Part shown: in pieces, positions 48,342-58,987 of the stretch
Position numbering within the stretch: the first letter of the stretch is position 1
How the letters are laid out: every line of letters begins with the position of its first letter
Assembly (NCBI RefSeq): GCF_003967355.1
Contig: NZ_BIFH01000035.1
Coordinates: 1-64,000 of the forward strand
Length of the DNA stretch: 64,000 nt
Source of the DNA: Embleya hyalina
Lineage (GTDB): Bacteria > Actinomycetota > Actinomycetes > Streptomycetales > Streptomycetaceae
Reading direction: 5' to 3'
Program-made: the position numbers and the translations under genes
The notes under the pieces: generated by a model
What the model was told of the DNA's origin: nothing
Databases searched by the model: none
Seen by the model: only the letters and a program-made list of their open reading frames with translations

Positions 48342-49823
48342 TCAGTCGCAACAACCCGCCGTCGCCGTCGGCGCCCCCACCGCGACCGGGGCGCCGACGC
48401 TCGGCATTCCGAGCAGTACGCCCGGGCTCGGCGCGGGGGTCGCGGTGCGGCGCTCCCACGCGTCGCCCGCGCGGGTGCGCCGGATGGCGAGCGGGGGGCG
48501 CTCGGCCAACAGGTGGTGCGGCGCGGCATAGGTGATCTCGACCGAGACCATGTCGCCGGGCCGCACCCCGTCGGCGGGGCGCTCGAAGTGCACGAGCCGG
48601 TTGTCCGGGGCCCGCCCGGACAACCGCGCGGTGTCGTGGTCCTTGCGACCCTCGCCCTCGGCGACCAGCACCTCCAGGGTGCGACCGACCTGGGTGCGGT
48701 TCTCCGCCCAGGAGATCTCCTCCTGGAGCGCGAGCAGCCGCTGGTAGCGCTCGGTGACCACTTCCTTGGGCACCTGGCCGTCCATCGTGGCGGCCGGGGT
48801 GCCGGGACGCTTGGAGTACTGGAAGGTGAACGCGGCGGCGAAGCGGGCCTCGCGCACCGTGTGCAGGGTCTGCTCGAAGTCCTCGTCGGTCTCCCCGGGG
48901 AAGCCCACGATGATGTCGGTGGAGATGGCCGCGTCGGGCATCGCCGCGCGCACCCGCTCGATGATCCCCAGGTAGCGGTCCTGGCGGTAGGAGCGGCGCA
49001 TCGCCCGCAACATCGTGTCGGACCCGGACTGCAACGGCATGTGCAGTTGGTGCATGACGTTCGGCGTCTCGGCCATCGCGGCGATCACGTCGTCGGTGAA
49101 GTCGCGCGGGTGCGGCGAGGTGAAGCGCACCCGCTCCAGGCCCTCGATCCGGCCGCACGAGCGGAGCAGCTTGGAGAACGCCTCGCGATCGCCCATGTCG
49201 GAGCCGTACGCGTTGACGTTCTGGCCGAGCAGCGTGACCTCGATCACGCCCTCGCCGACCAGCGTCTCGATCTCGGCGAGCACGTCGCCGGGGCGGCGGT
49301 CCTTCTCCTTGCCGCGCAGCGCGGGCACGATGCAGAACGTGCAGGTGTTGTTGCAGCCCACCGAGATCGCCACCCAGGCCGCGTAGGCCGACTCGCGGCG
49401 GGTGGGCAGCGTGGAGGGGAAGACGTCGAGCGATTCCAGGATCTCGACCTGGGCCTCCTGCTCGACGCGGGCCCGCTCCAGGAGCACCGGCAGCGAACCC
49501 ACGTTGTGCGTGCCGAAGACCACGTCGACCCACGGCGCCTTGCGCACGATGGTGTCCCGGTCCTTCTGCGCGAGGCAGCCGCCGACCGCGATCTGCATGC
49601 CGGGGCGTTCGGCCTTCGCGGGCGCGAGATGGCCCAGATTCCCGTACAGCTTGTTGTCCGCGTTCTCCCGGACGGCGCACGTGTTGAAGACGACCACGTC
49701 GGCCGGCTCCCCCTTGGGTGCGCGGACGTAACCCGCGTCCTCCAGCAGGCCGGACAGCCGCTCGGAGTCGTGGACGTTCATCTGGCACCCGTAGGTGCGG
49801 ACCTCATAGCTTCGCGCAGTCAT
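48342..49823 (-). CDS. miaB: tRNA-2-methylthio-N6-dimethylallyladenosine synthase MiaB
   Basis: A radical SAM methylthiotransferase acting on the i6A37 made by MiaA. The 493-aa protein has the N-terminal cluster cysteines (YGCQMN, NTCAVRE, GGCLAQ). The radical SAM motif [12 protein letters not shown] provides CxxxCxxC, and a TRAM domain ([23 protein letters not shown]) follows. The C-terminal ~35 residues are an extension ending GCCD. Start ATG at 49823; longer in-frame extension rejected. It is divergent from the TAXI gene with under 70 bp between starts. Confidence 0.96.
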
Positions 49824-49891
49824 AACACCCGACAGGGTACGGGGTTTGCTTCCTCGCGTGTGTGGCCGACCTCCATGGCAATATCGCCGCC

Positions 49892-50893
49892 GTGCCCTCC
49901 TTGTCGTTCCTCCCCGTTTCCCTGCGCGACGCCTGCGCGCGACGCCCCCGCCTGGTGCAGGCCGGGGTGGCGACGCTGCTGCTGTTCTGCCTGGTCGGGG
50001 GCTACCTGGTGCTCGGCAAGGACGACCGGCGGGCGCCGAGCGGGCCGGTCTCGTTGGCCACCGGAGTGCCGATGGGGGTGTATCACCGCTACGGCGAACT
50101 GCTGCGGCCCCGGCTGTCCGCGGACCTGGGCGTGCGGGTGAGCGTGGATGCCAGCGGAGGGTCGGTGGAGAACCTGCGTCGGGTGGTCGCGGGCGCGAAC
50201 ACGTTCGGCATATCCACCGCCGACGCGGTGGCCGATCTGGGGCCGGGCGACCGGGACCAGTTGCGCGCGGTGGCACGGCTGTACGACGACTACGTGCAAC
50301 TCGTGGTGCCGGTCGGCTCGCCGGTGCAGAAGATCACCGACCTGCGCGGGCGCCGCGTGGTGGTCGGGCTGCCCGGTTCGGGAGTGGAGTTGATCACCCG
50401 CCGGCTGCTCAGCGAGGTGGGCATGGGCGACATGGAGCAGGCCATCACGCCGGTGCGGGTCGGCATCGGCGAGGCCACCGAGCGGCTCAAGGACGGCACC
50501 GTCGACGCGTTCTTCTGGTCCGGCGGCCTGCCCACGGGCGCGGTCTCCGACCTGGCCGAGCACTGGCAGGTGCGGCTGGTGCAACTCGGCGACCTCGCGG
50601 GCAAGCTGCGCGATCGTTACGGGCCGGTGTACCGCGAGGCGGTGGTGCCGGCCGACGCCTATCCCGGCGGGACCGAGACGCCGACCATCGCCGTGCCGAA
50701 TCTGCTGGTCACCCGGGCGTCGCAGGATCCGGAGCTGATCAGGCGGGTGACCGAGACGGTGATGGAGAACCGCGAGGTGATCGGACGCGAGGTGCACGCC
50801 GCCCAGTTGGTGGACCCGAGGACGGCGATCTTCACCGATCCGCTGCCGCTGCACACGGGCGCGCTGCGGTGGTACCGATCGGTGAAACCCTGA
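49892..50893 (+). CDS. TAXI-family solute-binding protein, membrane anchored
   Basis: About 333 aa. One N-terminal membrane helix ([19 protein letters not shown]) is followed by a TRAP-type TAXI periplasmic-binding domain: [21 protein letters not shown] (TAXI opening), [67 protein letters not shown]. No TRAP membrane subunits are nearby, so it may be a sensor or orphan receptor. GTG at 49892 leaves more room for divergent promoters than the in-frame GTG at 49862; neither has a clear ribosome binding site. TAXI proteins bind small carboxylates such as glutamate in some cases, which fits the locus. Confidence 0.85.
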
Positions 50894-51103: not shown

Positions 51104-53023
51104 GTGTCCGAGGGGGAGATCGGCCGAATACTGAACGATCGTTACCGGCTGAGCCGCAGTCTCGGCCGAGGCGGTATGGGCGAGGTCTGGCTGGCCGTCG
51201 ACACCGCCCTCGGTCGCGAGGTCGCGATCAAGGAACTGCTGCTGCCCAAGTCGCTGGACGCGGGATCCCAGCGTTCCTGGCTGGAGCGCAGCAAGCGCGA
51301 GGCGATCGCGGCGGCCCGTATTCGCCACGAGAACGTGGTGACGGTGCACGACGTCTTCGAGGAAGACGGTTTGCCGTGGATCGTCATGGAATTGGTGATT
51401 TCGCGGTCGCTGGCCGACGTGATCCGCGCGGAGGGTCGACTCGACCACGCCGAGGCGGCCCGGATCGGCCTGGACGTGCTGCGGGCGTTGCGCGCCGCAC
51501 ACGCCAAGGGTGTGCTGCACCGCGACGTGAAGCCCGCCAACGTCCTGCTCGGCATGGACGGCCGGGTGGTGCTCACCGACTTCGGCATCGCCACCTTCGT
51601 CGACGCGCCCCAGGTGACCCAGTTCGGCGAACTGCTCGGCACGCCGGGCTATCTGGCGCCCGAGCGCGCGGAACAGTTCGCCCGGGCCCGGCCCAGCGTG
51701 CTCACCGACGACGCGAACGGGGACCACACGCTCGCCGACCGGCCGGACGTGCTCGATCCCGCCTCCGACCTGTGGTCGCTGGGCGCGACGCTGTACGAAA
51801 TGGTCGAGGGCCTGGCCCCGTTCAACCGGGCCTCGCCGGTGGAGGTCGTGGACGCGGTGGTCAACGCGCCGCCCGCGCCGCCCCGGCACGCCGGTCCGCT
51901 GGAGTCGGTGATCATGGGCCTGTTGCGCAAGGACCCGACCCGGCGCCTGGACGCCAAGGAGACCGACGCGCTGCTGACCCGGGTGGTGCAGGACTCGGTA
52001 CCGGTGACCTGGGGTGGTGATCCGCTGCCCCGCCGCGACGAGCGCGCCGAGCGGGACGAGGACGTCGACGCGACCTTCGCGGGCGAGCCGCCGGCCGACG
52101 AGCCGCCCGCGCGCCCGGCGCGCCGGTCCCGCTGGTGGCGGCGTACCCGGATCGCGCTGCCCGCCGCGCTGGCCTTCCTGCTGGTCGCGGTCGGGGTGTC
52201 GTGGCTGGCGGTGGAGAACAACCGGGCGGAGGGCGGCACGCACGAGGCCGACCCGCTCGCGAATCTGCGCAAGAACTCGCCGACGTACCGGGAGATGGTG
52301 GCCCGGGGCCGGGTGATCATCGGGGTCAAGCCGGACCAGCCGGGGTGGAGCGTGCGCACCGGCGATCAGGCGTATCAGGGCTTCGACGACGACGTGGCCC
52401 TGATGATCGCCGAGGACCTGGGGTTCAAGGACCGCGTCACGTTCATGGACGTGGAGACGCAGAACCGCGAGTACCGGATCACCAGCGGCCAGGTCGACCT
52501 GGTCGTGGCGAGCTACACGATCAACGCGGCCCGCGCGCAGAAGGTCTCCTTCGCCGGGCCGTACTACATCGCCGGGCAGGACTTCCTGGTCCGCACCGAC
52601 GATCCCGACGTCAACGGTCCCGAGGACCTCGCGCGCAGCTCCGTGTGCGTGGTGCGCGAGTCGACCTCGGCGCTGCGCATCCGGGGCGAGTTCCCGACCA
52701 TGCGGGTGGAGGAGCGCGGCAAGTACTCGGAGTGTGTGGACGAGTTGCTGGCCGGCAGGGTGCGCGGGGTGAGCACCGACGACGCGATCCTGTCCGGCTT
52801 CGTCGTGCAACACCCGGGGGCGCTGCGGATCCTGGGCCGGCCGTTCTCCGACGAGCCGTACGGAGTGGGACTGAGCAAGGGCGACATGGCGCTCGCCGAG
52901 GCCGTGTGCGGCGCGCTGAACCGGCACATCGCCAACGGCGACTGGCAGCGCGCGTACGACGCGCGGTTGCGCCCGCTGGGCCTGCCGCAGCCGCGCGCGC
53001 CGCAGTGCCGGGTGAACGAGTAG
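51104..53023 (+). CDS. receptor-like Ser/Thr protein kinase with extracytoplasmic amino-acid-binding (SBP) domain
   Basis: A 639-aa one-pass membrane kinase. Residues ~14-295 are a Hanks-type kinase: GRGGMGEVW (P-loop), AIKE (Lys43), HRDVKPAN (139-146), DFG (159-161) and APE, all intact. A Pro/acidic juxtamembrane, a Trp/Arg stop-transfer (RRSRWWRRTR) and a helix at ~349-370 follow. Residues ~400-639 are an SBP_bac_3 amino-acid-binding domain. Its sequence parallels GluB (56356-57306) in several places: VSFAGPYYIAGQ, VSTDDAIL, YGVGL, GDW--AYDA. PASTA repeats are absent. It presumably senses an extracellular amino acid, most simply glutamate, and signals by phosphorylation. It converges with gluK. 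Confidence 0.92.
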   Translation: MSEGEIGRILNDRYRLSRSLGRGGMGEVWLAVDTALGREVAIKELLLPKSLDAGSQRSWLERSKREAIAAARIRHENVVTVHDVFEEDGLPWIVMELVISRSLADVIRAEGRLDHAEAARIGLDVLRALRAAHAKGVLHRDVKPANVLLGMDGRVVLTDFGIATFVDAPQVTQFGELLGTPGYLAPERAEQFARARPSVLTDDANGDHTLADRPDVLDPASDLWSLGATLYEMVEGLAPFNRASPVEVVDAVVNAPPAPPRHAGPLESVIMGLLRKDPTRRLDAKETDALLTRVVQDSVPVTWGGDPLPRRDERAERDEDVDATFAGEPPADEPPARPARRSRWWRRTRIALPAALAFLLVAVGVSWLAVENNRAEGGTHEADPLANLRKNSPTYREMVARGRVIIGVKPDQPGWSVRTGDQAYQGFDDDVALMIAEDLGFKDRVTFMDVETQNREYRITSGQVDLVVASYTINAARAQKVSFAGPYYIAGQDFLVRTDDPDVNGPEDLARSSVCVVRESTSALRIRGEFPTMRVEERGKYSECVDELLAGRVRGVSTDDAILSGFVVQHPGALRILGRPFSDEPYGVGLSKGDMALAEAVCGALNRHIANGDWQRAYDARLRPLGLPQPRAPQCRVNE

Positions 53024-53116: not shown

Positions 53117-54532
53117 TCAGTCGGCCCTGGGGACCGTCAGCGTGACGGTGAGGCCGCCGCCCTCGCGCGCGGCGAAGTCGATCGTGCCGCCGCTCGCGGC
53201 GAGCAGGGTGCGCGCGATGGACAGGCCCAGACCGGAGCCGTCCACGTTCTGGTGCCGGGGGCTGCGCCAGAAGCGGTCGCCCACCCGGCGCATCTCCTCG
53301 AAGGTGAGCCCGGGGCCGCGGTCGCTGACCCGGATCTCCACCTCGCCGCCCACCGCCGCGCACGCGACCGTGATCGTGCTGTCCTCCGGGGCGAACTTGA
53401 GCGCGTTGTCCAGGATCGCGTCCAGCGCGCTGCCGAGCGTGACCGGGTCCACGTTGCCCGTCAGCGCCGCCGGGCCCTCCTGCTCGAACCGCCGGGCGCG
53501 CGAGCGGGCCAGGGTCTGCCACGCGTCCACCCGCTCGTGCACCAGCGCCGCCACGTCCACGGCCCGGGCCGACGGGCGCGCGTTCTCGGCCAGTGCCAAT
53601 TCGAGGAGTTCGTCCAACACACGGGTGAGCCGACGGCCCTCGTCCCGCACCCCCTCCAGCGTCTCGCCGTGTCCCGGCGGCAACGACAGGCCCAGTTCCT
53701 CGATCCGCAGGAGCAGCGCGGACAGCGGGTTGCGCAACTGGTGCGAGGCGTCGGCGGCGAACGCCCGCTGCTGGTCCACCACGGTCTCCACGTGGTCCGC
53801 CATCTCGTTGAACGACCGTGCCAGGCGCCGCAGTTCCGGCGGCCCCTGGGCGCCGGCCACACGCGCCCCGAGCCGGCCGGTGGCGATCTCGTGGGTCACC
53901 GAGTCGAGCACCCGCACCGGGCGCAGCACCCAGCCGGTCAGCCGGGTCGCGAGCAGCAACGCGGCCAGTACCGCGACCACTTCGCCGGCGAACAGAATCA
54001 GCCACACCCGCTGGATCTTCGCGCGCATCCGACCGGTCGGCGAGTCGGTGAGCACCACCGCCACCACGTCGCCCCGGTGGATCACCGGCACCGCCACCAC
54101 GATGCGATCGCGCTGCCAGGGCCACACCTGTCCTGGGTCGTCGCTGCGTCGTCCGGCCAGCGCCTCGGTGAACGCGGGCGAGCGCGGATCGACCCGAAAT
54201 CCCTGATGGGACACGGCGATCGGCTGGCCGCGCCGGTCGAAGGCGCCGACCCGGATGCCGTAGACGGCCTCGTAGCGCTCCAGCTCGGAGCGGAGCATGT
54301 CGAGGTCGACGGCGTCCGGTCCGGGCGGCACGTCGCCGTCGGTCTGCGCGCGCAGCGTGTCCGAGACCACGGTCAGCTGGGTGTCCGAAACGAAGCGGGT
54401 GAGGTCGTCCACGCGATCCCGGATCAGCTCCTGCTGATGCGCGGCGGCGCGGGAGATGGCCAACGGGATGCCGAGGGCGATCAGCACCGCGGTCATCAGG
54501 GCGAGGAGCAATGCGAGCAGGCGGGTGCGCAC
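53117..54532 (-). CDS. gluK: sensor histidine kinase, GluK-like
   Basis: A 471-aa two-component sensor. TM1 is at ~4-27, an extracytoplasmic domain spans ~28-172, TM2 is at ~176-198, and a HAMP linker follows. The phospho-acceptor His264 is in AADASHQLRNPL. The ATPase domain has DNALKFAP (N box), VSDRGPGL (G1) and GSGLGLSIARTLL (G2). It lies 36 bp downstream of the response-regulator gene, which is divergent from gluABCD. This matches the GluR-GluK system of S. coelicolor, reported to control glutamate uptake. The symbol is assigned by synteny rather than by sequence detail I can verify. GTG start. Confidence 0.9.
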   Translation of the reverse strand: MRTRLLALLLALMTAVLIALGIPLAISRAAAHQQELIRDRVDDLTRFVSDTQLTVVSDTLRAQTDGDVPPGPDAVDLDMLRSELERYEAVYGIRVGAFDRRGQPIAVSHQGFRVDPRSPAFTEALAGRRSDDPGQVWPWQRDRIVVAVPVIHRGDVVAVVLTDSPTGRMRAKIQRVWLILFAGEVVAVLAALLLATRLTGWVLRPVRVLDSVTHEIATGRLGARVAGAQGPPELRRLARSFNEMADHVETVVDQQRAFAADASHQLRNPLSALLLRIEELGLSLPPGHGETLEGVRDEGRRLTRVLDELLELALAENARPSARAVDVAALVHERVDAWQTLARSRARRFEQEGPAALTGNVDPVTLGSALDAILDNALKFAPEDSTITVACAAVGGEVEIRVSDRGPGLTFEEMRRVGDRFWRSPRHQNVDGSGLGLSIARTLLAASGGTIDFAAREGGGLTVTLTVPRAD

Positions 54533-54568: not shown

Positions 54569-55246
54569 TCAGGCTTCGGGGACGACACGGTAGCCCACGC
54601 CGCGCACCGTCTCGACGATCGCCGGGTTCCCGAGCTTGGAGCGCAGCGACGCGACGTGCACCTCCAGGGTGCGATTGTTGCCCGCCCAGCTGGTGTGCCA
54701 GACCTCGCTGATGATCTGTTCGCGGCGGAAGACCACGCCGGGACGCTGGGCGAGGAGGGCGAGCAGGTCGAACTCCTTGCGGGTGAGCACCACGTCGACG
54801 CCGCCGACGGTGACCCGCCGGGTGGCGGGGTCCAGCTCGATGCCGCCGGGCCCCTTGGCGGGCGGCGGGGTCTCCGCGGCGGGCGCGTCGCTGCGCGTGC
54901 GCCTGCTCACCGCGTGTATTCGGGCCAGCAGTTCGCCGATGTCGTAGGGCTTGGTGACGTAGTCGTCGGCGCCCAGGTTCAGTCCGTGTATCCGGGATCG
55001 GATGTCCGCCCGCGCGGTCACCATGATCACCGGGACGTCGCACAGCCTGCGGATCCGGCTGCACACCTCGAAGCCGTCGTGGTCGGGCAGCGACAGGTCC
55101 AGGAGCACCACGTCGGGCACGTCGTCGAGCGCGGCGAGGGCCTCCTCGCCGGTGGTCGCGTGCCGCACGGTGAATCCGTGTCGGCCCAGCACCGCGCGTA
55201 GCGGCGCGGCGACTCGCAGGTCGTCCTCAACGAGCAGGAGGCGCAC
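54569..55246 (-). CDS. gluR: OmpR/PhoB-type response regulator, GluR-like
   Basis: A 225-aa regulator. The receiver domain has VEDD, Asp50 (VLLDLSLPD) as phosphorylation site and Lys99 (DDYVTKPYD). The winged-helix output domain follows (VLTRKEFDLLALLAQRPGVVFRREQI, NRTLEVHVASLRSKLG, VRGVGYRVV). The GTG at 55246 has GAGGAAC six bases upstream; a GTG four codons earlier is in frame. It is transcribed divergently from gluA over a 186-bp gap with direct repeats that could bind it. Assignment as GluR rests on the gluA-D neighbourhood. Confidence 0.92.
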   Translation of the reverse strand: MRLLLVEDDLRVAAPLRAVLGRHGFTVRHATTGEEALAALDDVPDVVLLDLSLPDHDGFEVCSRIRRLCDVPVIMVTARADIRSRIHGLNLGADDYVTKPYDIGELLARIHAVSRRTRSDAPAAETPPPAKGPGGIELDPATRRVTVGGVDVVLTRKEFDLLALLAQRPGVVFRREQIISEVWHTSWAGNNRTLEVHVASLRSKLGNPAIVETVRGVGYRVVPEA

Positions 55247-55279
55247 GTGGTTCCTCACATCTGACGGTCCGTTACCGAC

Positions 55280-55432: not shown

Positions 55433-56251
55433 GTGACGACGGATGCCTCTGACACCACACCGAAGCCGCCGGTGCTCACCAAGAGCGAAGTCGGCAAGGA
55501 CGCCGTCCACCCCGGCGCACCCCTTGTCGTCTTGGAGAACGTCAACAAGCACTTCGGCGCCCTGCACGTGTTGCAGGACATCGACCTGACCATCCACAAG
55601 GGCGAGGTCGTCGTCGTCATCGGTCCGTCCGGATCGGGCAAGTCGACCCTGTGCCGCACGATCAACCGCCTCGAGGCGATCGACGGCGGCCGGATCACCA
55701 TCGACGGTGCCCTGCTGCCGCAGGAGGGCCGCGAGCTGGCCCGGCTGCGCTCCGACGTGGGCATGGTGTTCCAGTCGTTCAACCTGTTCGCGCACAAGAC
55801 CGTGCTGCAGAACGTCACGCTCGGCCCGCTCAAGGTCCGCCGCGAGAAGGCCGACGTGGTCACCCGGCGCGCGCACGAGCTGCTCGACCGGGTCGGCGTG
55901 GGCAGCCAGGCGGACAAGTACCCCGCCCAGCTCTCCGGTGGCCAGCAGCAGCGCGTCGCGATCGCCCGCGCGCTGGCCATGGAGCCCAAGGTGATGCTCT
56001 TCGACGAGCCCACCTCGGCGCTCGACCCGGAGATGATCAACGAGGTACTGGAGGTCATGCGCGACCTGGCCCGCGAGGGCATGACGATGGTCGTGGTGAC
56101 CCACGAGATGGGCTTCGCGCGCTCCGCCGCGAACCGGGTGATCTTCATGGCCGACGGCCGCATCGTCGAGGAGAACACGCCCGAGGAGTTCTTCAGCAAC
56201 CCGCGCAGCGACCGGGCCCGGGACTTCCTCTCCAAGATCCTGCACCACTGA
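55433..56251 (+). CDS. gluA: glutamate ABC transporter ATP-binding protein GluA
   Basis: A 272-aa ATPase energising glutamate/polar amino-acid import. Walker A is GPSGSGKST, the Q-loop is MVFQSFNLF, the signature is LSGGQQQR, Walker B is [15 protein letters not shown] and the H-loop is [10 protein letters not shown] ~25-residue N-terminal extension precedes the usual [12 protein letters not shown] start. GTG at 55433. It is the first gene of gluABCD, each gene separated by a leader or overlapping. Confidence 0.95.
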
Positions 56252-56355: not shown

Positions 56356-57306
56356 ATGAAGATGCGCTCATCCGTGGCCGTCGCCGGCATCGCCGTGCTC
56401 GCCCTGTTCGGCACCGCGTGTGGCAAGGACGGTTCGCCCGAGGCCAAGACCCCGGCCGGCTCGACCGGCGGTTCGCAAGGTGCCCCCGGCGCGCCCGGCG
56501 GCGCCGCGCCCGAACTGCCCACCTACACGCCCAAGACGGGTGTGGCGCTCACCGGCTCGAAGACGTTCGACGCGGCCAAGTCGCGCGGCAAGCTGGTCGT
56601 CGGCGCCAAGGAGGACCAGCCCTTCCTCGGCTCCAAGGACCCGGCCACCGGCAAGGTCTCCGGTTTCGACATCGAGATCGCCAAGATGATCGCGGCCGAC
56701 CTCGGCTTCGGCCCGGACAAGATCGAGTTCAAGGCGATCGCCTCGACCAACCGTGAGAACGCCCTGGTCAACGGCGACATCGACTACTACGTCGGCACCT
56801 ACAGCATCACCGACAAGCGCAAGCAGCAGGTGTCCTTCGCGGGTCCGTACTACATCGCCGGCCAGTCCCTCCTGGTCCGCAAGAACGAGACCGCGATCAC
56901 CGGCAAGGACACCATCAAGGGCAAGACGGTCTGCTCGGCGAAGGGCTCGACCCCGCTGCAGAACCTGCAGACCAACTTCCCCGACACCACCACCCGGGTC
57001 TTCGACACCTACTCGCTGTGTGTCGAGAGCCTGCTCTCCAACCAGGTCGACGCGGTCTCCACCGACGACGCGATCCTCAAGGGCTACGCGGCCAAGGACC
57101 CGAAGGCGCTCAAGGTGGTCGGCGAGCCGTTCACCGTCGAGAACTACGGCGTCGGCCTGAACAAGGACGACTCGGTCTTCCGCAACGCGGTCAGCGACGC
57201 CCTCGACGCGCACGAGAAGAGCGGCGACTGGAAGAAGGCGTACGACGCCACCCTGGGCCTGTCCGGCTCGGCGGCCCCGGCCATCCCGGCGCTCGTCCGC
57301 TACTGA
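56356..57306 (+). CDS. gluB: glutamate-binding lipoprotein GluB
   Basis: The 316-aa substrate-binding protein of the importer. The signal peptide ends in lipobox GTAC (Cys22), with a Gly/Ala/Pro spacer after it. SBP_bac_3 domain from ~residue 75: RGKLVVGAKEDQPFLG, VSGFDIEIAKMIAADLGFG, the ASTNRENALVNGDIDYYVGTYSI region, VSFAGPYYIAGQSLLVR, VSTDDAILKGY and a C-terminal GDWKKAYDATL. It is the closest match in the window to the outer domain of the kinase at 51104-53023. ATG at 56356 has GAAGGA upstream. Confidence 0.95.
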   Translation: MKMRSSVAVAGIAVLALFGTACGKDGSPEAKTPAGSTGGSQGAPGAPGGAAPELPTYTPKTGVALTGSKTFDAAKSRGKLVVGAKEDQPFLGSKDPATGKVSGFDIEIAKMIAADLGFGPDKIEFKAIASTNRENALVNGDIDYYVGTYSITDKRKQQVSFAGPYYIAGQSLLVRKNETAITGKDTIKGKTVCSAKGSTPLQNLQTNFPDTTTRVFDTYSLCVESLLSNQVDAVSTDDAILKGYAAKDPKALKVVGEPFTVENYGVGLNKDDSVFRNAVSDALDAHEKSGDWKKAYDATLGLSGSAAPAIPALVRY

Positions 57307-57455: not shown

Positions 57456-58103
57456 ATGCTCGAAGTGATCCAGGACAACTGGGACCTCTTGCGGCACGGC
57501 TTCGTCGGGACGCTCAAGCTGACCGTCGTCTGTGGGATCGTGTCGCTTCTGCTCGGCACGCTGATAGCCGCGTGTCGGGTCTCGCCGGTGCCGCCGCTGC
57601 GCTGGTTCGGCACCGCCTACGTCAACCTTTTCCGCAACACCCCCCTGACGCTGATCTTCTTCGCCGTCGCGCTCGGTTTCCCGAAGCTGCGGTTCAACCT
57701 CTCCTACTTCGAGTTCGCGGTCATCGCGCTGAGCACCTACACCGCCGCGTTCATCTGCGAGGCGATCCGCTCGGGCATCAATACCGTGCCGATCGGCCAG
57801 GCCGAGGCGGCCCGCAGCCTCGGAATGTCCTTCACCCAGTCGCTGAGCCAGATCGTGCTGCCCCAGGCCGGTCGGGCGGCGGTCCCGCCGATCGGCAGCC
57901 TGCTGATCGCGATGGTCCGCAACTCGGCCATCGCCAGCGCCTTCAACGTCACCGAACTCATGGGCACCAGCGCGGAGATGGTCGAGAACGGCTACAAGTC
58001 GCTGTGGGTCCTGCTGTGGATCGCGGTCGGCTACCTGATCATCACCCTGTCCATGAGCGCCGCGCTGGCCGCGCTCGAAAAGAAGCTGGCGGTGGTCCGA
58101 TGA
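57456..58103 (+). CDS. gluC: glutamate ABC transporter permease GluC
   Basis: A 215-aa HisM-type inner-membrane permease with five predicted helices. LFRNTPLTLIFF opens the family core. The ATPase-coupling EAA loop is EAARSLGMSFTQSLSQIVLPQA. The ATG at 57456 follows GGAGAGGAGGG. Its stop overlaps the gluD start as ATGA. Confidence 0.95.
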   Translation: MLEVIQDNWDLLRHGFVGTLKLTVVCGIVSLLLGTLIAACRVSPVPPLRWFGTAYVNLFRNTPLTLIFFAVALGFPKLRFNLSYFEFAVIALSTYTAAFICEAIRSGINTVPIGQAEAARSLGMSFTQSLSQIVLPQAGRAAVPPIGSLLIAMVRNSAIASAFNVTELMGTSAEMVENGYKSLWVLLWIAVGYLIITLSMSAALAALEKKLAVVR

Positions 58104-58987
58104 GCCGCGAAGCGAGCGTGCTGTTCGACGTCCCCGGTCCCAAGGCGCGTCGCCGCAACCTGATCATCGGCGTCGTCGGCAGCCTGGGCCTGGCCGCGTT
58201 CCTGGTCTTCGTGATCGTGCGGTTCAACGACACCGGCCAGTTCGAGTCGGCGAAGTGGGACCCGTTCCAGTACAGCGGTGTCCAGCAGTTCATCTTCGAC
58301 GGCCTCAAGGCCACGCTGAAGGCGTTCGCGCTGGCCGCGGTGTTCTCCATCCTGCTCGGCGCCTTCCTGGCCGCCGGTCGGCTCTCCGATCACCGGATCG
58401 TGCGCTGGGCCTCGACCACGTTCGTGACCTTCTTCCGCGCCATGCCGCTGCTGGTGCTGATCTTCATGCTCTACCTCGTCCCGGGCAGCCAGGGCTGGTG
58501 GAAGTGGGATCCGATGTGGCCGCTGGTGGTCGGTCTGACCATCTACAACGGCACCGTGCAGGCGGAGAACATCCGCGCCGGCATCCTCGCCGTGCCCAAG
58601 GGGCAGAGCGAGGCGGCCTACGCGCTGGGCATGCGCAAGACCCAGGTGATGACGATGATCCTGGTCCCCCAGGGCATCCGCACCATGCTTCCGACGATCA
58701 TCAGCCAGATCGTGGTGACCCTCAAGGACACCTCGCTCGGCTTCCTGATCACCTACCCGGAACTGCTCGCGGCGGCCAAGCTGATCGGCGGCTACCAGGA
58801 CTACAACATGCCGTTCATCCCGGTCACCATCATCGTCGGCACCATCTACGTGGCGATGTGCATGATCCTGTCGGCGTTCGCGACCTGGCTGGAGCGCAGG
58901 CTGCGCACCTCCCGCAAGGGCAAGCCGCCGGCCGTCGTGCCGCCCACGCAGGCCGAGTTGTCCCGCGACAACGTGGCCATCGTCTGA
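58100..58987 (+). CDS. gluD: glutamate ABC transporter permease GluD
   Basis: The 295-aa second permease of the importer. The N-terminal helix (~20-43) is followed by the core with FFRAMPLLVLIFMLYLV and EAAYALGMRKTQVMTMILVPQG (EAA loop), FLITYPELLAA, and a final helix ending in a basic tail. ATGA overlap with gluC indicates coupled translation. A strong hairpin follows the stop, closing the operon. Confidence 0.95.
   Translation: MSREASVLFDVPGPKARRRNLIIGVVGSLGLAAFLVFVIVRFNDTGQFESAKWDPFQYSGVQQFIFDGLKATLKAFALAAVFSILLGAFLAAGRLSDHRIVRWASTTFVTFFRAMPLLVLIFMLYLVPGSQGWWKWDPMWPLVVGLTIYNGTVQAENIRAGILAVPKGQSEAAYALGMRKTQVMTMILVPQGIRTMLPTIISQIVVTLKDTSLGFLITYPELLAAAKLIGGYQDYNMPFIPVTIIVGTIYVAMCMILSAFATWLERRLRTSRKGKPPAVVPPTQAELSRDNVAIV

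Follow-up and report, generated by a model that had tools for sequence, protein, structure and literature searches.

The 64,000-nucleotide stretch of Embleya hyalina DNA analyzed here (the window) encodes what we predict to be a single-pass receptor Ser/Thr kinase for extracellular glutamate and/or aspartate, a reading to which we give a probability of roughly 60%. The gene (51104..53023, forward strand, GTG start) specifies a protein of 639 amino acids which combines a kinase domain with a C-terminal SBP_bac_3 (solute-binding protein, SBP) ectodomain. An acidic amino-acid receptor is the best reading because the residues of the ligand pocket are kept and the place beside gluK is held across several genera. 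Domain order, a hydrophobic helix, the kinase motifs, the pocket, the gluK neighborhood, and a low dN/dS within the genus are all read directly from the sequence.

Residues 14-286 (51143..51961, forward strand) form a Hanks kinase domain (Pfam Pkinase, E 1.3e-43) with the motifs GRGGMG, VAIK, HRDVKPAN, DFG, and APE. The domain is thus complete for the Hanks type, with its catalytic Lys, HRD, DFG, and APE, and HRD.KP.N, DFG, and P.E are invariant in all 18 aligned kinase rows, the window protein among them. A variable linker separates it from a single predicted transmembrane segment at residues ~347-372 (52142..52219, forward strand). Hydropathy windows above 1.6 start only at residues 347-354, indicating one membrane segment, and by this hydropathy measure the protein has the single helix between kinase and predicted outer domain that characterizes Hanks-type receptors. 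The sequence RRSRWWRRTR directly precedes the segment, and from this Arg/Trp-rich stretch we infer that the kinase lies inside the cell. The SBP_bac_3 ectodomain follows at residues 404-619 (52313..52960, forward strand; Pfam E 4.8e-22), and is also supported by a structure model and a fold match. An intact Hanks kinase joined by one membrane helix to an SBP_bac_3 domain, as proposed in a preliminary description of this DNA, is therefore what the Pfam domains and the single hydropathy segment show. Pfam searches of the window kinase at E 0.001 detected neither rubredoxin nor TPR domains, which sets it apart from PknG-type kinases. Comparison with two orthologues from the same genus gave dN/dS values of 0.09-0.15 for the kinase and 0.15-0.16 for the SBP domain; against Yinghuangia the values are higher (0.23 and 0.49, with 0.58 for GluB).

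To assess the possible ligand, we compared the ectodomain with GlnH of Mycobacterium tuberculosis. According to the GlnH report (PMC6069109), Ser164, Arg169, and Asp250 contact the alpha groups of bound Asp/Glu, and Arg147, Thr162, and Trp232 contact the side chain. In the alignment, R455 (52466..52468) is equivalent to Arg147, which contacts the side-chain carboxylate, and it is present in 26 of 26 members of the kinase's protein family. S470, T472, and R477 (within 52511..52534) correspond to Thr162, Ser164, and Arg169, Y541 (52724..52726) to Trp232, and D559 (52778..52780) to Asp250, which contacts the alpha-amino group (all on the forward strand). The equivalents of Ser164, Arg169, and Asp250 that mark acidic amino-acid SBPs are thus T472, R477, and D559; the presence of residues for the alpha-carboxylate and amine had been set beforehand as a test, and at the sequence level they are there. 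At the side-chain contacts Arg is kept, Ser replaces Thr, and Tyr replaces Trp, the Tyr being found also in the glutamate-bound Enterococcus faecium protein 5eyf, which has R, T, T, R, Y, and D at the six columns in a printed alignment. AncQR and CDT-Anc1 are without the Arg147 equivalent. Across the family, columns 147/162/164/169/232/250 read R, S/T, S/T, R, Y, and D in 26/26 members (window protein included), and the 57 streptomycete-like GluBs all have R, T, S/T, R, Y, and D. Such residues are nearly family-wide among the sampled actinobacterial SBPs, so they neither separate glutamate from aspartate nor prove signalling.

The predicted structure points in the same direction. An ectodomain model built from a 26-sequence alignment has a pLDDT of 95, and Pfam, the model, and the fold search agree on an SBP_bac_3 domain with a bilobed fold, as in acidic amino-acid SBPs. 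Its top four solved folds are 6h2t (GlnH with Glu, TM 0.86), 6h1u (GlnH with Asp), and 5eyf twice (Glu). Arg-, Gln-, and Cys-binding SBPs appear further down the search with similar TM-scores, so the fold alone cannot name the ligand. Structure prediction and pocket comparison with GluB, suggested as checks in the preliminary description, thus gave a confident model, Glu/Asp-bound top matches, and nearly the same pocket.

It is conceivable, though in our judgment unlikely, that a receptor of the same build recognizes something other than Glu/Asp, such as Asn, Gln, or a cell-wall fragment, and that its place beside gluK is inherited gene order. SBP_bac_3 domains bind many ligands, and relatives in one genus (g9, see below) are located away from gluK. 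At GlnH positions 161 and 162, moreover, the family has A (26/26) and S (25/26), as against G and T in all 57 streptomycete-like GluBs. However, A at position 161 also occurs in 41 of 46 other GluBs, and glutamate-bound 5eyf has A and T at these two positions. The Arg for the side-chain carboxylate, kept in every family member, and the Glu/Asp-bound state of the four best folds likewise favor an acidic amino acid.

The gene order in the window is miaB (-), a TAXI gene (+), the kinase (+), gluK (-), gluR (-), and gluABCD (+). The miaB gene (48342-49823, reverse strand) was confirmed. Immediately upstream of the kinase lies a conserved neighbor encoding a TAXI-family solute-binding protein (49862..50893, forward strand; TIGR02122, 228.7 bits vs. 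a cut-off of 84.35). Downstream are genes for a GluK-type histidine kinase (53117..54532, reverse strand; HAMP, HisKA, and HATPase_c domains) and a GluR-type response regulator (54569..55258, reverse strand; Response_reg and Trans_reg_C), followed on the forward strand by a GluA-type ABC ATPase (55433..56251), a GluB-type solute-binding protein (56356..57306) located 3.3 kb from the kinase gene, and GluC-type (57456..58103) and GluD-type (58100..58987) permeases, both with BPD_transp_1. The fusion had been described as lying next to a GluK-GluR pair and a glutamate importer, and genes of these types are indeed next door. Motif searches run separately on the region upstream of the kinase gene and on the gluR-gluA interval returned short repeats only. 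The TAXI gene adjoins gluK or the kinase fusion at most loci examined, and one of the relatives with a PDB entry is described as a 'putative GluR0 ligand binding core'. The TAXI protein may present ligand to GluK.

This setting also suggests a different role, in which the ectodomain docks on loaded GluB, on the TAXI protein, or on the GluCD permease and reports transporter activity, with no free ligand involved. The proximity to GluABCD and to a further solute-binding gene is conserved, and in the proposed PknG model GlnH works via another protein, GlnX. A pure docking domain would have no need of ligand-contact residues, yet these are conserved, and we regard this explanation as quite improbable.

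To evaluate whether the association with gluK is conserved, we examined related loci. The kinase gene lies within 115 bp of gluK in 20 genomes (the E. hyalina genome included), with the TAXI gene on its other side in each. In one more genome (G266) the fusion adjoins gluK with a broken frame, and in G010, G239, and G263 the distances are 3.3, 6.9, and 7.1 kb, giving a total of 24 genomes with the kinase gene beside gluK or no more than 7.1 kb away. Wherever the fetched flanks reached far enough, gluR and gluABCD were seen past gluK. The G266 fusion (locus L153) is split between frames, representing either a disrupted gene or a sequencing error. For comparison, we inspected 23 gluK loci without a fusion (24 minus the broken G266), all of which came from one search and are not a random sample. 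The TAXI gene is within 90 bp of gluK in 14 of them, at 465 bp in 1, and at 3.1-3.3 kb in 6; the remaining 2 have no TAXI gene, and one of these loci, L042, ends there. TAXI thus stands directly at gluK in 14 of the 23, which implies that the fusion occupies a precise slot. At L020, one of the 6 loci with the longer distance, the TAXI-gluK gap holds a gene which, judged by eye, resembles a GH38 glycosidase.

The link is not obligatory. Genus g9 has 10 genomes with a relative, 7 of which were examined with flanks, and none of the 7 has gluK near the relative (8-9 kb flanks in 6, 3-5 kb in G025). Comparison of 6 unlinked loci revealed no neighbor common to all, and three of the unlinked relatives (L230, L231, and L232) have two small ORFs in common at varying distances. 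With regard to distribution, a whole-protein search at E 1e-79 matched at least 32 of 249 genomes of the taxonomic family, all with a frame that joins kinase and SBP; this is a lower bound, as no fewer than three genomes known to carry the gene (G010, G012, and G266) were not picked up at this threshold. The carriers include Embleya, Yinghuangia, and other Streptomycetaceae, and the gene seems to be absent from most genomes of the taxonomic family. In the kinase tree, a long branch sets one of the 32 matches (G008, locus L090) apart. In two loci of the Yinghuangia genus, gluCD is followed by another gluB-like gene (L016:15900-16895 and L196:12321-13328).

The origin of the ectodomain was investigated by sequence comparison and phylogenetic analysis. 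The SBP domain of the window kinase is 41% identical to the local GluB over 246 amino acids (blastp, E 5e-62), and all the blocks reported earlier as shared with the GluB 3.3 kb away (VSFAGPYYIAGQ, VSTDDAIL, YGVGL, and GDW..AYDA) were found. This sequence resemblance is far beyond chance. The longest block, the 12-mer VSFAGPYYIAGQ, occurs exactly in 7 of 103 GluB-labelled rows and 2 of 34 SBP-kinase rows, and the pattern [VI].FAGPYY.AGQ in 31/103 and 18/34; as far as these rows go, the block is for the most part a family motif. The label GluB was given to rows on the basis of neighboring gluA/gluC-like genes and not of tested function. Among the 103, the local GluB comes 62nd (domain blast) or 70th (other scoring) when matched to the window kinase. 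The top-scoring match was not the local GluB at any of 15 loci tested, the local ranks ranging from 5 to 77.

Three SBP trees were built, the first two by reducing 174 rows to 125 and then, without long branches, to 83, and the third from a new selection of 78 rows that included a GlnH-like outgroup and five g9 kinases. The family's SBPs form one clade in each (support 86, 100/100, and 100/97, respectively), and its kinase domains also form one clade (SH-aLRT 99), indicating that both parts have travelled together. Streptomycete and Pseudonocardiaceae GluBs form a clade of their own (99, 99/95, and 98/91), and the family's SBPs fall outside it in all three trees. Their deep position differs among trees: they join Actinomadura SBPs and the SBP-kinases of another group, f19, in the 125-row tree (SH-aLRT 93), they are grouped with streptomycete plus Pseudonocardiaceae GluBs, apart from all other rows, in the 83-row tree (93/81), and the 78-row tree does not settle the matter. 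Residue distribution adds a further distinction. Cys602 and a Cys after W614 are present in 26/26 family members, and both are missing from all 57 streptomycete-like GluBs; in other GluBs Cys602 occurs in 0/46 and the late Cys in 5/46. The late Cys is also found in 15/15 Actinomadura SBPs and is common to the f19 kinases.

Placing the family's SBPs with Embleya/Yinghuangia GluB cost 16.2 log units (AU P = 0.033, without correction for the three tests run), so this clade is weakly rejected on these alignments. Placing them with all Streptomycetaceae GluBs cost 11.4 log units (P = 0.080). A recent duplication of the local GluB is not supported, given the separate clade, the rank, and the P-value of 0.033. 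The proposal that a kinase at this locus captured a copy of the transporter's own GluB can draw on the identity and common blocks, on the AU result for all Streptomycetaceae GluBs, and on the grouping in the 83-row tree. Given the low rank of the local GluB, the weak rejection just described, the GluB clade that excludes the family's SBPs (98/91 in the 78-row tree), and the two family-specific Cys residues, we consider it very improbable. The preliminary description had suggested a receptor kinase for glutamate or a related amino acid formed by duplication of the transporter's own binding protein. Its functional half agrees with the pocket and the gluK place; its half on origin is not supported by trees of the kind it had called for, in which the family's SBPs are not grouped with the local GluB. 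A much older duplication from a Streptomycetaceae GluB in the family's ancestor might still have happened, as it was not rejected by the AU test (P = 0.080). The SBP source probably lies within actinobacterial GluB-like SBPs other than the present local GluB, and the fusion probably arose before the sampled Streptomycetaceae genera diverged, with transfer between genera also possible.

Other SBP-kinases were observed. A second one is encoded in the E. hyalina genome (G000 contig C16, about 594839; L007, L190; domains by Pfam). Its SBP falls, on a long branch, with streptomycete GluBs in three trees, and close copies were detected only in G000 and G002 among 41 genomes searched (own included). 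If either kinase carries a captured GluB, this one is the stronger candidate. Five SBP-kinases of the class-level family f19 (L178, L182, L184, L185, and L189) differ from the window family in their kinase domain, carry an SBP akin to those of Actinomadura, and probably represent an independent fusion. A quick kinase-domain tree, in which long branches are present, separated the window family from both L007/L190 and the f19 fusions, which disfavors a single origin of all SBP-kinases. With SBPs alone, a clade of the family and L007 was not rejected (AU P = 0.156). The simplest reading of these sequences is that kinases gained GluB-like sensors more than once.

We propose that glutamate and/or aspartate would bind the extracytoplasmic Venus-flytrap domain, whose closure would be relayed through the single membrane helix to the cytoplasmic Hanks kinase and would switch it, probably by dimer rearrangement and autophosphorylation. 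In this way, working alongside the GluK-GluR two-component system, the kinase might inform glutamate uptake or nitrogen/TCA metabolism of acidic amino acids outside the cell. Topology, ligand, signal direction, dimerization, and the kinase substrate are all predicted features of this scheme. The likely reason to keep such a kinase beside GluK is a different output, namely enzyme phosphorylation instead of transcription. GlnH-GlnX-PknG provides a precedent for such a ligand-switched mechanism. Somewhat more tentatively, and at a little under even odds, the logic of that three-protein system may have been condensed into a one-chain Glu/Asp receptor kinase beside a histidine-kinase system for the same ligand, giving a dual phospho-Ser/Thr and phospho-His/Asp reading of glutamate, with several independent kinase captures of GluB-like SBPs in Actinobacteria.

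Which stimuli activate bacterial Ser/Thr kinases is named as an outstanding question in PMC6069109. The same paper already noted that a single polypeptide can carry both a kinase and an SBP domain; its example is MSMEG_1200, which is conserved among species of Mycobacterium and Streptomyces, and it counts 260 more such SBP kinases in InterPro. Work on StpK7/MSMEG_1200 has dealt with phage susceptibility, and the kinase is known from a gene island with that role (PMC13355554). The window protein resembles this type (NCBIfam NF052427) in having a kinase and SBP_bac_3 in one chain, but it reaches 169 bits where the cut-off is 900 and is thus not its equivalog, and it is located at a glutamate locus. 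Searches of the open-access literature listed no published account of the window kinase family or of its tie to the glutamate locus.

In mycobacteria and Corynebacterium glutamicum, Asp/Glu-binding GlnH is tied to GarA/OdhI phosphorylation, according to PMC6069109 and PMC9769921. The window system is similar in linking an Asp/Glu-type SBP with a similar pocket to a Ser/Thr kinase, and GlnH is the closest solved fold; however, GlnH-GlnX-PknG comprises three proteins (SBP, membrane transmitter, and kinase), whereas here there is one chain. The E. hyalina genome encodes PknG separately, on contig C24, with no more than 1.6 kb between its rubredoxin domain and a GlnH-like SBP (G000:C24:76027-78481; L005, L243), and by this arrangement the genome probably has the usual PknG sensing module as well. 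GluB of the gluABCD importer belongs to the same SBP family, with nearly the same pocket, but it is a transporter binding protein in a separate clade and lacks the two extra Cys residues. GluK of Streptomyces coelicolor binds glutamate and controls gluABCD, as summarized in a review (PMC9739842); the GluK-type protein shares the locus with the window kinase but is a histidine kinase without an SBP_bac_3 domain. The SBP-kinase build was thus known before, and the window family appears to be a new member for which pocket residues and genome context together give an unusually strong prediction of the ligand. It can also be compared directly with PknG and GluK-GluR, two systems that respond to these amino acids.
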